Assembly (NCBI RefSeq): GCF_002943105.1
Contig: NZ_PTPZ01000002.1
Span: 149,582-213,581, forward strand
DNA: 64,000 nt
Source of the DNA: Cloacibacterium normanense
GTDB lineage: Bacteria; Bacteroidota; Bacteroidia; Flavobacteriales; Weeksellaceae
Reading direction: 5' to 3'
Shown: in pieces, positions 8,135-19,102 of the stretch
Layout of the letters: each line of letters starts with the position of its first letter
How positions within the stretch are numbered: the stretch's first letter is position 1
The notes under the pieces: model-generated
What the model was told of the DNA's origin: nothing
Seen by the model: only the letters and a program-made list of their open reading frames with translations
Databases searched by the model: none
Translations under genes and position numbers: made by a program

Positions 8135-10243
8135 GAATAAATTTTTTAAAAATCCTTTTTCTTTTTTAGACTTTTCTTTTTGATTTCCAGAATCTTGCAA
8201 ACCTAACTTTTGCTTTACCTGTTTTACCGTTTTCTCGATTTTTTCTACATTTTTACCCACCAAAGTTTTCTTTAAACCTTCTTCTACTCCTTTCCAAAGC
8301 AAATTAAAAAATGACTTCGTAGGATTTCTAGTGGTGTGAACTTCTACATTTTCTGTTTCGGATTTAGAATTGGTTCGGACGATTAAATTTGTAACGGCAC
8401 TCATCAATTTCTTCTCTTTTCTCGTCTTTTCATCTAAAACCGTCACCTTCACATTTTCATGTTTCATCGTGTAATTTCCAGAAATCTCATTTCTGTTTCC
8501 TTTGAAATTAAATCGCACTTCGTGAATATTCCCTTCTACTTTTTTATGAGAATAGGGTGTAACAAAAGCGTTAATACTTTCGGCTGGTAAATCATTAATT
8601 TGCCCTGAAATCGAAAAGTCATCCTGAAGATTTGCCGTATCAAAACTCCAGTTTACTTTCATAGGCGCTACATTCATAAATTGGGTGTGAATTTTAATCG
8701 GAACAACCGTATTTTTGAAACCTTTATTTGAATTCAGATTCTGTGCATTTAAATTAAATTGGCTAAACGTCAATCTTCCAGGTTTATTTCCATTCGGCAA
8801 ATCTTCTTCATAAACAAAATTTGAATTTCTAATGTTCAAATTTTTCACCAAAAGAGGAAATTTTATGGAACGGAGCAATTCACTGTAAAGTTTTTTTCTA
8901 GTTAGATCATCTTTAGGACTTTTACTTCTATAAATTTGAGCTTGTAAATTGATAATCATTACATTATCAACATTTATTTTCGGTTGGCTATCTTTTAATT
9001 TCCAATGAAAATCAGTAATTCTCGTTTGTGCAATTTTTACATTATACCAATCTTTTTCGGTAGAAATTTTAGAAGTAAATTGGGTTTTAGTAAACTTGGG
9101 CTGTAAATGCAATCCTCTTAAATCCATAGAATTTTTTTGAAAATCAGCATTATTAATGAACAACTGATAGAATTTTCCAGCATCTAAAAATATATTTCTT
9201 CCCGAAATTTGGTGATTTTCATATCGAAAAGGCAATTCATTTTTGGGATTTTTTTCATCTAAAACCAATTGTTCAAAATGAGCATTCACATTGTCTACGG
9301 AAAATTTGTTTTGTCCGTTTTTGATAATTTTTGCTTTTCCATTATCAAAGAAAACATTTTGTAATTCAACAGTATAAATAAAAGGTTTATTTTTGTTTTT
9401 ATTCTGATTTTCAGATGTATACATCGTTAAATTCGGTTCAGAAAACCGAACTTCAGACAAACTGATTTTATTCTTCTTCAGCACAATATCTTTGAAATTC
9501 ATTTTTTGAGAAGAAATATCCAAAAGTGATTTTCTAGGGAATTTTCTCGAAGATTCAGAAAAATTCATCAAAGGTTTCATTGAAAAATCTGTAACAGACA
9601 TTTGTCCATTTTCTGTATTAATTTCGGAAGCTGAAATGTGATACACTTCATCTGGATAAAATTGAAATGCTTTACTTTTTATAGAATATTGGTCAAAAAC
9701 AATGGGCAATTTACGCGACACCTCTTTCTCTGTAAGTTTCAGATTTTCAATATTTAAACTTAAATTTTCAATTGACAAAAATTTACTTTTATCAAATTTT
9801 AAAATTTCAATATTGCCGTTTTCAATCATCAAATTTTTAGAAATCAAAGGTTGCTTATTTTTCTTATCACCTTGTTGATTTTCAGGTAGAACAATCTGAA
9901 GATTTGGACGAAAAAGCTTTAAGTATTTAGCATTAATTTTCTTATTTAGAATGGCATCATAAATCCCTAGATTTGAAATAAAAAGAGAATCTACAGTTCC
10001 GTTAAGCTGTAAAACGTTTTGATTATCTGTGATTTTTGGAGTAATTTTAAGTTTACTTGCAGAAATATTTCCGCTTACAAATTCTATGTTTAAATTCTGA
10101 TAATGAATATGATACGGGGATTTATTTTCGATGTACTGCGGCAAATGATGCTGCAACCAATAATGGAAATACAGATTTGCCGAAACCAAAAGCACAGCAA
10201 ACCCAAAAATAACGGAAAATAGAATTCGTAAAGCTCTCTTCAT
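8126..10243 (-). CDS. AsmA-like membrane-anchored protein
   Basis: A 705-residue protein with one N-terminal membrane anchor (about residues 6-26) and a very long beta-rich periplasmic part. It ends in a Lys-rich tail (QKEKSKKEKGFLKNLFKK). The repeating short beta segments and the layout (anchor, NLNIEFVSGNISASKLKI) resemble the AsmA/DUF748 superfamily, whose members act in envelope lipid transport or assembly. The assignment rests on overall architecture, not on a diagnostic motif. It is a single gene. Confidence 0.55.
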   Translation of the reverse strand: MKRALRILFSVIFGFAVLLVSANLYFHYWLQHHLPQYIENKSPYHIHYQNLNIEFVSGNISASKLKITPKITDNQNVLQLNGTVDSLFISNLGIYDAILNKKINAKYLKLFRPNLQIVLPENQQGDKKNKQPLISKNLMIENGNIEILKFDKSKFLSIENLSLNIENLKLTEKEVSRKLPIVFDQYSIKSKAFQFYPDEVYHISASEINTENGQMSVTDFSMKPLMNFSESSRKFPRKSLLDISSQKMNFKDIVLKKNKISLSEVRFSEPNLTMYTSENQNKNKNKPFIYTVELQNVFFDNGKAKIIKNGQNKFSVDNVNAHFEQLVLDEKNPKNELPFRYENHQISGRNIFLDAGKFYQLFINNADFQKNSMDLRGLHLQPKFTKTQFTSKISTEKDWYNVKIAQTRITDFHWKLKDSQPKINVDNVMIINLQAQIYRSKSPKDDLTRKKLYSELLRSIKFPLLVKNLNIRNSNFVYEEDLPNGNKPGRLTFSQFNLNAQNLNSNKGFKNTVVPIKIHTQFMNVAPMKVNWSFDTANLQDDFSISGQINDLPAESINAFVTPYSHKKVEGNIHEVRFNFKGNRNEISGNYTMKHENVKVTVLDEKTRKEKKLMSAVTNLIVRTNSKSETENVEVHTTRNPTKSFFNLLWKGVEEGLKKTLVGKNVEKIEKTVKQVKQKLGLQDSGNQKEKSKKEKGFLKNLFKK

Positions 10244-16445: not shown

Positions 16446-18089
16446 TTGAAAAAACTAATTCCACTTTTATTTTTAACCATTATATTTTCCTGCATTAAAA
16501 ACACTGTAGAATCTGATTCTGCAAAAAATAAAACGTATTTAAAAGCCACAGACTTGAGAGATGCTGGCGAAAAAGACTCTGCTTATATTTATTATGCATT
16601 AGCAAAGGATGATTTTTTGAAAAAAAATGATTCCATCTTTGTAGCTAAATGTCTTGTCAATATGGCCATTATTCAAACAGAAAAAGGTGATAATTTTGGA
16701 GGAATTGAAACTTCATTAGAAGCGGAAAAATATCTCAAAAAGAATGACGAGATTACAAGAGAGATTAAGTCATCTAATTATAATAATCTTGCACTGGCAC
16801 ATGTTGAATTAAAGGATTACAAAAAATCAGAAAAATATTATTTCTTAGCTCTTAATCAATCTAATAATTCTTTATCTAAGCTCATATTTTATAATAATAT
16901 TGCAAATAATTTTTTAGATCAAAAAAATTACCAAAGTGCAAAAACATATTATAAAAAAGCATTGAAAACCCAAGATAGCTTAAGTTACGCAAGAGCTTTA
17001 AACAATTGGGGAAGATGCTTGTACCTAGAAAACAAAAACACCAAAGTTTTGCCTTATTTTCAAAAAGCTTTACTCATTAGAACGATTTTAAAAGATTATT
17101 GGGGACTTAATTCCAGCTATGGAACTTTAGCAGACTATTATAAAGAAATAAATCCTCTAAAATCTATTTTTTATGCTAAAAAAATGTACGAAGTTGCATT
17201 AAAAATAGAAAATCCTGATGATAGATTAGAAGCACTAGAAAAATTAATCGCTTTAGAAAAATCAGAAAACTCAAAAAAATATTTTTTCGAATATCAAAAA
17301 CTGAATGACAGTTTGCAAACAGCTAGAGCAAAAGCCAGAAATCAATTTGCACTGATTCGCTATGAAACCGAAAAAGCCAAAACAGAAAATATAGAAAAAG
17401 AAAATCACATTTTTAGACAAAAAGTGGCGATTGCATTTCTCGTCACAGGTTTATTGGTTGGTTTATTTTGGTATTTAAGAAGAAAAAAAAGACTGGAACA
17501 AGAAAAAGAAATTGAGGTAAAAAACACTCAAATTAAATATTCTAAAAAAATACATGATGTAGTAGCCAATGGTTTATACCAAACTATGGTAGAAGTAGAA
17601 AATCAAGAAGAGCTAGACAAAGAAAAACTCCTTGATAAACTAGAAAAAATGTACGAAGAATCAAGAGACATTGCTCATGTAGACATTAATAAACAAATAA
17701 AAAAAGAATTTTCGGTTAAGCTTTTTGAAATGATTTCTTCTTATTCTTCACTTCAGCAAAAAGTTTTAGTCATAGGAAACGAGCAGAATATTTGGCAAAA
17801 CGTTTCTCAGAATATACAATCAGAAATTTTCTATGCACTTAGAGAACTCATGATTAACATGAAAAAACACAGTCAAGCGACATTAGTTTCGGTAAAATTT
17901 GAAAAAATTGAAAATATTTTAAAAATAAAATACACCGATAATGGCCTTGGAATGGGCAATGCAGAAAATAAAAAACTTTCTGGAATCAAAAATACGGAAA
18001 ACCGTATTGAGAACATTGGCGGAGATATTAATTTTGAAAAAAATCTACAAAAAGGATTACAAGTAAATATATCTATTCCAATTCATTAA
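16446..18089 (+). CDS. TPR-containing sensor histidine kinase
   Basis: Kinase of a two-component system, 547 residues, starting at a TTG (no ATG fits the signal peptide). It has a possible lipobox (LTIIFSC, Cys16), then several tetratricopeptide repeats over about residues 30-290 that would lie in the periplasm. A coiled segment follows, one membrane span is at about 326-346, and the kinase core comes next. The likely phospho-acceptor is His370 in SKKIHDVVANGLYQ. The ATPase part has the N box ELMINMKKHS, the G1 box DNGLGMG and a C-terminal GLQVNISIP. The response regulator starts 2 bases after its stop. The TPR part suggests a protein or peptide signal; none is evident. Confidence 0.9.
   Translation: MKKLIPLLFLTIIFSCIKNTVESDSAKNKTYLKATDLRDAGEKDSAYIYYALAKDDFLKKNDSIFVAKCLVNMAIIQTEKGDNFGGIETSLEAEKYLKKNDEITREIKSSNYNNLALAHVELKDYKKSEKYYFLALNQSNNSLSKLIFYNNIANNFLDQKNYQSAKTYYKKALKTQDSLSYARALNNWGRCLYLENKNTKVLPYFQKALLIRTILKDYWGLNSSYGTLADYYKEINPLKSIFYAKKMYEVALKIENPDDRLEALEKLIALEKSENSKKYFFEYQKLNDSLQTARAKARNQFALIRYETEKAKTENIEKENHIFRQKVAIAFLVTGLLVGLFWYLRRKKRLEQEKEIEVKNTQIKYSKKIHDVVANGLYQTMVEVENQEELDKEKLLDKLEKMYEESRDIAHVDINKQIKKEFSVKLFEMISSYSSLQQKVLVIGNEQNIWQNVSQNIQSEIFYALRELMINMKKHSQATLVSVKFEKIENILKIKYTDNGLGMGNAENKKLSGIKNTENRIENIGGDINFEKNLQKGLQVNISIPIH
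17991..18036 (+). promoter_or_regulatory. Palindrome plus -7 box, putative internal promoter of the response regulator
   Basis: Palindrome TACGG-AAAA-CCGTA (17993-18006, with one extra base pair each side extending it to AATACGG...CCGTATT), then exactly 22 bases, then TAATTTTG (18029-18036). It lies inside the end of the kinase gene, about 55 bases upstream of the response regulator start. The same palindrome and spacing recur at 18841-18884. A role as an activator site for the adjacent regulator is inferred. Confidence 0.5.
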
Positions 18090-18091
18090 AA

Positions 18092-18757
18092 ATGATGTTT
18101 AATAAAGTACTAATAGCCGAAGACCACGAAATCAGAAATCTAGGAGTCATCAAAACTCTAGAAGAATTGCAAATTACAGATTATGAGTTTGTAAGTTATT
18201 GTGATGATGCCGTTTCTAAACTAAAAACTGCTATTTCAGAAGAAAAACCTTATGATTTACTCATTACGGATTTATCTTTTGACACCGATTTCAGAGAGCA
18301 AAAATTGACTTCTGGACAAGAACTCATCGCTGAAGTGAGACAATTGCAACCCAATATTAAAATCATCGCTTTTTCTATCGAGAAAAAACCTTCTATTATT
18401 GATGAACTTTTTAAAAAACATCACATCAATGGTTTTGTAAGCAAAGGCAGAAATGATGGTAAAGAACTGAAAAGTGCCATCAAAAAAGTTTTTGAAAACA
18501 AAATTGTGATTCCTCAAGAAATCATTAATTCCATCAGAAATAACTCATTTGAATTTACCAATTATGATGTGTATTTGGTAGAACTTTTGGCTAAAGGTTG
18601 GCGTCAACAAGAAATAGAAGACCATTTTAAAAACACCAATATAAAACCAGACAGCAGAAGTTCTATAGAAAAAAGATTAAGTGAACTCCGCGAAAGTTTA
18701 AGCGCCAAAAATAACACGGAAATGGTGGTACTTTGTAAGGATTTGGGGATTATTTAA
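18092..18757 (+). CDS. Response regulator with C-terminal DNA-binding domain
   Basis: Partner of the TPR kinase, 221 residues. The receiver domain opens MMFNKVLIAEDHEIRNLGV, with acidic residues Glu10/Asp11, the phospho-acceptor Asp60 in DLLITDLSFD, and the conserved Lys in GFVSKGRND. The output domain (about residues 145-221) contains YLVELLAKGWRQQEIEDHF, a helix-turn-helix related to the LuxR/NarL class but diverged. The usual LuxR TxxExxVLxL...NKxIA consensus is weak. Start: two adjacent ATG codons at 18092 and 18095. A promoter-like palindrome lies upstream, inside the kinase gene. Confidence 0.87.
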   Translation: MMFNKVLIAEDHEIRNLGVIKTLEELQITDYEFVSYCDDAVSKLKTAISEEKPYDLLITDLSFDTDFREQKLTSGQELIAEVRQLQPNIKIIAFSIEKKPSIIDELFKKHHINGFVSKGRNDGKELKSAIKKVFENKIVIPQEIINSIRNNSFEFTNYDVYLVELLAKGWRQQEIEDHFKNTNIKPDSRSSIEKRLSELRESLSAKNNTEMVVLCKDLGII

Positions 18758-18838
18758 ATAATCCTTTTTTTACGAAATTATTTTACAAAACTCCTCATTA
18801 GTAAATTTAGGCAATATAAAAACAAAAAATAAAACCCA

Positions 18839-18884
18839 ATTACGGAAAACCGTAATGAAACAAATTTTTATCAGTCTACATTTG
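18839..18884 (+). promoter_or_regulatory. Palindrome plus -7 box, putative promoter of an orphan transcript
   Basis: Second copy of TACGG-AAAA-CCGTA (18841-18854; extended ATTACGG...CCGTAAT), again exactly 22 bases ahead of a TAnnTTTG box (TACATTTG, 18877-18884). No TTG is present at -33, so activation by a bound regulator is plausible. The palindrome centre would lie near -42. Confidence 0.55.
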
Positions 18885-18889
18885 CAGAA

Positions 18890-19030
18890 GTAATCTTCTA
18901 CATACTCTTTTTAATAAATGCAAAATTTTATTTTTAAACTAATAACTTTTTATATAACAACACACTTGCATTGAGAGTAGAGTAAGTTTTAAACGGGGAA
19001 ATGGTGGGAGAAATCTCACCATTTATTTTT
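18890..19030 (+). ncRNA. Candidate small RNA or short-peptide transcript
   Basis: A stretch of about 140 bases between a promoter-like element (box ending 18884) and a strong terminator, with no recognisable gene. It contains one short frame, 18918-18974, encoding MQNFIFKLITFYITTHLH, a hydrophobic 18-residue peptide. The product may be a small RNA, a membrane peptide, or both. The 5' end is estimated from the box position. Confidence 0.4.
18999..19030 (+). terminator. Orphan intrinsic terminator
   Basis: Stem AAATGGTGGGAG / CTCACCATTT (with one G-U pair) followed by a T-rich run. The nearest upstream gene ends more than 240 bases earlier, so it probably ends a separate short transcript. Confidence 0.85.
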
Positions 19031-19102
19031 TTCAGTACTTTCAAAATTATGGATTTTTAAAATCAAAGAAGAAAACACAAGCGAAAACATGAATGGCGAG
19101 AA

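Follow-up and report, generated by a model that had tools for sequence, protein, structure and literature searches.

A palindrome-and-box promoter beside a two-component system of Bacteroidota: a candidate self-amplifying switch linked to defence-type genes

It is an open question when bacteria express their costly defence systems and whether a single control governs many of them. A 64,000-nucleotide stretch of DNA from Cloacibacterium normanense (GCF_002943105.1, contig NZ_PTPZ01000002.1, positions 149,582 to 213,581; hereafter the window) raises it at one locus, where a histidine kinase gene (16446-18089, plus strand) and a response regulator gene (18092-18757, plus strand) are accompanied by two copies of one palindrome, each at the same distance from a promoter box. 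This promoter signature ties the two-component system to cas9, Gabija-type ATPases, a cyclase of the cyclic oligonucleotide-based anti-phage signalling system (CBASS) type and restriction-modification genes in one family of Bacteroidota; for two further families the link is thinner. We propose, with a probability of about 0.8, that this two-component system is self-amplifying, that its regulator has the palindrome as its operator and that the regulator activates a defence regulon. One sensor may then turn on some of the antiviral defences of the cell, and a coordinated immune response would become testable through a single regulator. If this is true, new defence systems, even ones without a match in PADLOC, could also be traced by using the promoter as a DNA tag.

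Two exact copies of TACGG-AAAA-CCGTA (TACGGAAAACCGTA) lie on the plus strand at 17993-18006 (operator 1) and 18841-18854 (operator 2; 18840-18855 with the flanking T and A). Exactly 22 bases behind each stands a TAnnTTTG box, TAATTTTG at 18029-18036 and TACATTTG at 18877-18884. An earlier note on this DNA had reported both arrangements, and we confirmed them at these coordinates. Its statement that site 1 points into the regulator gene also holds, with the correction that this site and its box are not intergenic: they are located inside the kinase gene, where the predicted operator forms part of the codons for NTENRI. For TACGGN4CCGTA with at most one mismatch, shuffling leads one to expect 0.26 occurrences per window, and two exact copies are present. 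The complete genome (2.84 Mb) holds three exact copies, all with the AAAA centre. This count alone is unremarkable (3 versus 2 for a reversed control), and TACGGAAAACCGTA with up to two mismatches is found 27 times, fewer than the 39 matches of its reversed control. The standout feature is the palindrome coupled to a box at fixed spacing, not the number of palindromes. That such a shared arrangement is unlikely by chance was argued in the earlier note; the spacing, the reversed controls and the orthologs described below bear this out, and a chance origin was ruled out on these grounds. A repeat element was also rejected as the source, as the 343-base region behind the regulator contains no tandem repeat and does not recur in full elsewhere in the genome, its two short genomic matches being 45 and 29 bases long. 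A sigma-70 promoter scan gave results no better than shuffles.

A site centred at -41.5 is the position of a class II activator. The TAnnTTTG box occupies -12 to -5 in the excerpted text of PMC9723704, and because of this placement the palindrome centre falls at -41.5, in agreement with the earlier estimate near -42. On the same placement, transcription is predicted to start near 18041 and 18889. The promoter matches the class II arrangement in its box, its palindrome centred near -41.5 and its fixed spacing. Leaving aside the kinase-internal pattern, 127 distinct exact sites were compared: 83% have T at position -1 of the palindrome and 92% have A at +14, which extends the consensus to TTACGG-N4-CCGTAA; the centre is mostly A/T (TTTT in 35, AAAA in 24). 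TTTG was found 17-23 bases before the box in none of the 127 sites and NTTG in four, a range in which the operator itself excludes TTTG at most spacings. An independent -33 (TTTG) element is absent, largely by construction, and the predicted operator covers its place.

Since the N4 palindrome without a box occurred in 27 of 40 relatives, with a similar reversed control in many of them, only the palindrome with its box was counted across genomes. With spacings of 7-37 allowed, this combination is present in 216 of the 296 genomes of the family and its reversed control in 12 (counted from the result table). The spacing among the 150 matches listed is 22 in 119, 21 in 10, 23 in 8 and another value in 13. 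Site and regulator occur together in 208 of the 296 genomes, the regulator alone in 14, the site alone in 8 and neither in 66; inside the genus g41 the corresponding numbers are 13, 1, 5 and 17. A class-wide search with spacings of 20-24 matched 12 of 295 genomes (reversed control, 3): three in the same family, five in another family of the order (f3), two in f55 and two in f36. The f36 matches, with a spacing of 20, are probably due to chance. Six loci of two other families show the sites beside a kinase-regulator pair whose regulators are 41-45% identical, and in three of the loci a site directly precedes the regulator gene; all six were fetched for having the motif, and they show a range rather than a frequency.

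The earlier note had named the absence of the palindrome at orthologous regulators as grounds for giving up its proposal. A regulator profile search found 42 loci in named records, mostly of Chryseobacterium, the others belonging to Epilithonimonas, Kaistella, Chishuiella, Cloacibacterium, Halpernia and metagenome-assembled genomes. Site 1 is kept in 41 of these loci and the downstream site, at no more than one mismatch, in 37. The co-occurrence supports the palindrome as the binding site of the adjacent regulator and falls short of proof; together with the conservation at orthologs it favours that part of the earlier proposal. In eight of the 42 loci (L091, L093, L095, L097, L112, L116, L123, L127), a minus-strand site with one mismatch lies about 2.2 kb upstream of the regulator and precedes a divergent frame of 159-308 amino acids; Pfam matched no family in a similar protein of L289.

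The spacer of site 1 is 22 bases in all 41 loci (L128 lacks the site). Its palindrome carries no mismatch in 24 loci, one in 15 and two in 2, and its box is exact in 40, with one mismatch in L100. Kinase homology covers the position in 41 of the 42 loci, the exception being L124. The underlying segment encodes N-[TMAV]-x-x-R-[IMK], in which the two middle residues vary (EN, AS, GT, VS, ET, ES, EI). In the 41 loci, Thr is encoded by ACG in 29 of 29 cases (usage 9.8%), Arg by CGT in 35 (usage 8.8%) and by CGC in the remaining 6, and Asn by AAT in 41 of 41 (usage 73%). The binomial p for this choice is near 1e-30, a value that ignores kinship among the loci; the open frame ahead of the site comprises only 10 codons in L123 and 21 in L124. 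Because rare codons are fixed where the middle residues vary, these patterns indicate that site 1 is preserved as DNA by codon choice and not merely through the protein sequence.

The genes behind the sites were compared with a control. The regulon set comprised first and second genes behind exact sites with spacings of 21-23, away from the regulator locus (93 sites: 76 at 22, 9 at 21 and 8 at 23). We excluded sites at or close to the regulator locus (L133, L134, L136, L140, L217, L220-L225), together with proteins shorter than 90 amino acids, those past the second gene and those sharing many 8-mers with one already taken. A small number of loci in the set (L132, L135, L137-L139, L141, L142) belong to other families. 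Gene calls followed a simple open-frame rule instead of a gene finder, and control proteins came from arbitrary regions of 20 family genomes. PADLOC matched 297 families in 92 regulon proteins and 8 in 92 length-matched controls, the former number being inflated by redundant models. Thirteen of the 20 longest regulon proteins had a match, compared with at most 8 proteins in the whole control of 92. These matches were to PbeA (two), IetS, DpdB, REase III, MTase III (two), PDC-S02, PDC-S06, DrmC (weak), RmuC, GajA and SngA. Other members of the set matched a CBASS-type cyclase, PDC-S59 (weakly), an LmuA/Avs1a-type protein and two type II methyltransferases. A model match stands here for a predicted function only. 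Pfam recognised half as many families in the regulon set (72) as in the control (144), which marks the regulon proteins as the less familiar of the two groups.

Sites were also sought from the side of the defence genes. A cas9 match is present in 157 of the 296 family genomes, of which the 30 best-scoring loci, some with near-identical promoters, were examined; 25 are in regulator-bearing and 5 in regulator-lacking genomes. In the regulator-bearing group, a site pointing at cas9 was found in 13 of 25 loci at up to two mismatches and in 19 of 25 at up to three (14 and 20 when both directions were counted). The five regulator-lacking loci gave none at two mismatches and one at three, also when only cas9-directed sites were counted, and reversed upstream regions gave 0 of 30. 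For GajA-like genes of Chryseobacterium, 11 of 26 loci had a site at up to two mismatches and 12 of 26 at up to three, all gene-directed, with a reversed control of 0 of 26; these are 26 of the 28 listed matches, the start in L352 being set on a neighbouring frame and L337 offering only 168 bases upstream. Random regions (478,320 positions) contained no site at two mismatches and two at three. By these counts the predicted operator stands before defence-type genes more often than before other genes. At eight cas9 loci (L301, L303, L306, L310, L312, L315, L321, L322), the perfect site faces away from cas9 and towards a divergent gene; its palindrome is also that of the cas9-directed site. One palindrome may serve both directions at these loci. 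Judged by eye, the divergent frame of two loci, L183 and L202, resembles a Tex-type RNA-binding protein.

The genome of the window itself is a modest example. The genome search proposed in the earlier note for the spaced motif found the two perfect sites at the regulator locus; the third palindrome (C13:80901, minus strand, spacer 22) has the box TAATTTAG. It is followed by a gene for a 220-amino-acid membrane protein and then by one for a DndC-like protein (DndC match, 1.3e-97). As the spaced sites are few and no cas9 match was found in this genome, the local regulon looks small: the regulator, a small RNA and perhaps the DndC-like operon. Among relatives, G006 carries cas9 and a divergent cas1-like gene (by eye), each with a near-site of two mismatches and spacer 22 (type II locus L294, G006:C1:618000-634600, at 9681 on the plus and 16533 on the minus strand), and the interference and adaptation genes of this locus may share control. 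In C. rupense (G001), four similar copies of TCCGACTTCCCGTA-22-TAnnTTTG with two mismatches (C1:80525, 184412, 189784 and 887666) perhaps represent a repeated promoter element.

The kinase of the pair has a putative lipoprotein signal, tetratricopeptide repeats (TPR), a transmembrane segment and a HisKA_3/LiaS-like core. The repeats are Pfam matches, and the core is supported by an alignment of homologues and by NCBIfam LiaS (3e-13, residues 352-546; 49.7 bits, far under the 450-bit cut-off); Pfam at 0.001 found no kinase domain in this protein. Cys16, after a hydrophobic start, is conserved, and the lipobox and the transmembrane segment were read by eye. The TPR repeats would be located outside the inner membrane. 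Two bases separate the kinase from the regulator; the start used in the regulator family is probably its second ATG, at 18095. The regulator consists of a receiver (PF00072 Response_reg, 1.4e-8, above the cut-off) and a divergent RcsB/NarL-like C-terminus. Its family profile aligns with RcsB (6.9e-11, residues 4-192) and continues through the helix-turn-helix (HTH) region (RcsB 5-191; VraR 1-182, 3.2e-6); DesR was also matched. The genome of the window has one regulator of this family at an E-value of 1e-10. At 18747-18771 (plus strand), an AT-rich self-complementary stretch followed by T7, seen by eye and absent from the list of the terminator scan, is a possible terminator of the kinase-regulator mRNA.

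The site, its spacing, its conservation, its co-occurrence with the regulator and its link to defence-type genes can be read from the sequences themselves. From them we infer regulator binding, activation, feedback, a small RNA and a signal, in the following order. The membrane kinase would be triggered, and a phosphorylated dimer of the regulator would bind the palindrome at -41.5. As a class II activator, the bound dimer would recruit RNA polymerase to promoters that have the -7 box and in which the operator occupies the -33 region. The promoter inside the kinase gene would raise the regulator without raising the kinase, which amounts to positive feedback, and the second promoter would fire right after the regulator gene. 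Its output would be a frameless stretch in Cloacibacterium and Halpernia, and small proteins or a second regulator copy in Chryseobacterium. Further copies of the operator across genomes would switch on anti-phage systems, making the pair the switch of a defence regulon. The trigger might be a disturbance of the envelope, possibly by phage, which is a guess from the resemblance to LiaS, VraR and RcsB. Going further, we lean slightly towards a dedicated immune regulon of Bacteroidota, in which one kinase and a self-amplifying regulator switch a changing, genome-wide arsenal and incoming systems keep or acquire the same 44-base promoter. With the same slight preference, this arsenal would include CRISPR-Cas9, Gabija-type, CBASS, restriction-modification, Shango-like and DndC-like systems as well as unknown ones.

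Several observations weigh against a regulator-driven defence regulon. The exact spaced site is missing in 14 of the 222 regulator-bearing genomes and present in 8 of the 74 without the regulator, and Pfam at 0.001 recognises no HTH in the regulator. Two genomes of the window's own genus (G003, G004) lack the regulator at an E-value of 1e-10 and keep degenerate cas9 sites; these may be relics, or they may have arrived with transferred systems that carried the promoter. In the best 30 cas9 loci, the cas9-directed site is never perfect and its box is mostly TAnnTTTA. Only two perfect spaced sites are present in the window's genome, the DndC-side site having TAATTTAG as its box, and the 220-amino-acid membrane protein encoded first behind that site has no PADLOC match. 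Seven of the 20 longest regulon proteins likewise lack such a match, and the regulon set includes pirins, FMN (flavin mononucleotide) reductases, an efflux protein and secreted proteins. In G004, a degenerate site also precedes a restriction-methylase-like gene (by eye).

The main rival remains a general envelope or stress response, in which the operator does belong to the regulator and the defence genes are visible because they are mobile and abundant. RcsB, VraR and LiaS are components of envelope-stress systems, and they are the proteins that the regulator profile (the first two) and the kinase (the third) resemble. TerD, RmuC, DUF1508 and DUF6232 proteins are found behind sites, as are the pirins, FMN reductases and efflux protein just mentioned. 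We regard this explanation as possible and on balance doubtful, since the PADLOC excess over the length-matched control is very large and gene-directed sites at up to three mismatches precede 19 of 25 cas9 and 12 of 26 gajA-like genes. It is unlikely that another DNA-binding protein recognises the palindrome and that the regulator is merely one of its targets. The 8 genomes with a site and no regulator, the near-sites kept in G004 and the failure of Pfam to recognise an HTH in the regulator would all fit such a protein; the strong co-occurrence, genus g41 included, the sites beside the kinase-regulator pair in three families and the second regulator copies behind sites of their own in 13 of 42 loci speak for the regulator itself. 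Site 1 could also be a by-product of a conserved kinase motif, with site 2 as the only real operator. It does lie in a conserved segment (NTxxRI ... G ... IxFE), so that the protein frame fixes the spacing. We consider this very improbable in view of the extreme codon choice at the palindrome, which is kept though two middle residues vary. Least credible, to the point of being almost dismissed, is a role of the palindromes as RNA hairpins or terminators rather than DNA operators: the terminator scan does list both as minus-strand terminator-like stems of 7 pairs, yet a fixed 22-base distance to TAnnTTTG and a placement shortly before start codons would be meaningless for terminators.

Control of immunity by regulators of this kind has been described in Serratia, where, in the excerpted text of PMC8450108, the Rcs envelope stress response is reported to control CRISPR-Cas and surface-based immunity. 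The likeness lies in the alignment of our regulator profile with RcsB; the difference is that here, in Bacteroidota with their own -7 box, the regulator gene and many defence-type genes of unrelated kinds stand behind one short operator. The same excerpt describes for GacA/UvrY (PigQ) and Csr/Rsm a palindromic activator site, a direct small RNA target and an effect on CRISPR-Cas. The system studied here resembles it in having a response regulator with a palindromic activator site and a small RNA, here predicted, among its targets. However, the PigQ site is given there as TGTAAG-N6-CTTACA, which the present TACGG-N4-CCGTA does not match, and protein-coding genes carry the operator directly here. 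As far as that text goes, the closest precedent comes from Serratia, where CRISPR-Cas is under Rcs and Rsm control. LiaSR/VraSR share with the present pair the nearest NCBIfam model for the kinase core (LiaS) and a match to the regulator profile (VraR), but the kinase here has TPR repeats and a lipoprotein-like N-terminus, and the targets differ. The targets of FimR are fimbriae. FimS of the FimS/FimR pair of Porphyromonas gingivalis matched the kinase weakly in NCBIfam (5.5e-6, residues 63-506), with 24.9 bits against a cut-off of 600. For a Flavobacterium cas9, a TAnnTTTG promoter inside an insertion sequence transposase gene has been proposed, and the words "response regulator" do not occur in the excerpted text (PMC10309648). 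Among the matches listed in open PMC full text, a scope outside which most subscription papers and bioRxiv lie, no title or abstract opening describes the operator.

What lies behind the second site differs among genera. In Chryseobacterium, the loci carry behind it small proteins of DUF1508, DUF6232 and DUF4177 (below the cut-off) and some without a Pfam match. The tandem second regulator (L109, L112-L122, L125) lies about 0.7 kb after the regulator start, and its operator mostly has one arm mismatch. These copies suggest a cascade or divided labour. In Cloacibacterium and Halpernia, no conserved frame follows site 2; the stretch behind it is short and closes with a hairpin and a T run. In the window, a transcript of about 140 nucleotides without a conserved reading frame is predicted at 18889-19031 (plus strand) from the site 2 promoter, the terminator, an alignment of five sequences and a scan of small frames; the terminator hairpin and T run that close it lie at 18999-19024 (plus strand). 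A small protein was rejected as the product: the frame is 18 amino acids long in G000, 22 in G002 and missing in the near relative G006, and therefore an RNA is preferred. Site 2 in Cloacibacterium probably drives a small RNA. The fold of 18890-19031 has z = -2.86, for one sequence. In the five Cloacibacterium-type sequences, 3 of the 11 predicted pairs of the terminator hairpin show a kept change on both sides, and several pairs break in the two distant sequences as aligned. No conserved structure past the terminator was predicted in this alignment, and no Rfam family matched the region at gathering level. Below threshold, a microRNA-precursor model matched over the terminators with 30.9 bits (gathering 83) and an L20 leader model matched upstream; both were judged to be chance.

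A second unit of the small-transcript type is present in C. rupense. In G006 (L008:3034) and G002 (L010), a small membrane-protein-like frame that is missing in the window lies between the regulator and the small RNA; the one in G006 has its own palindrome and the box TAAATTTA. In Cloacibacterium G005, a further site stands ahead of an HSDR_N protein. This protein of about 350 amino acids recurs in arrays at the regulator locus (L105 and L295 of G005, with the Pfam match in L105, and by eye L223 and L225), adjoining DUF1508-like genes in L223 and L225. Finally, Pro/Lys-rich peptides of 43-48 amino acids (KPGPK) are encoded behind the promoter in Chryseobacterium and in one genome of family f3 (L171:1985, minus strand; L156:2747, plus; L173:2003, minus; L133:4351, plus).

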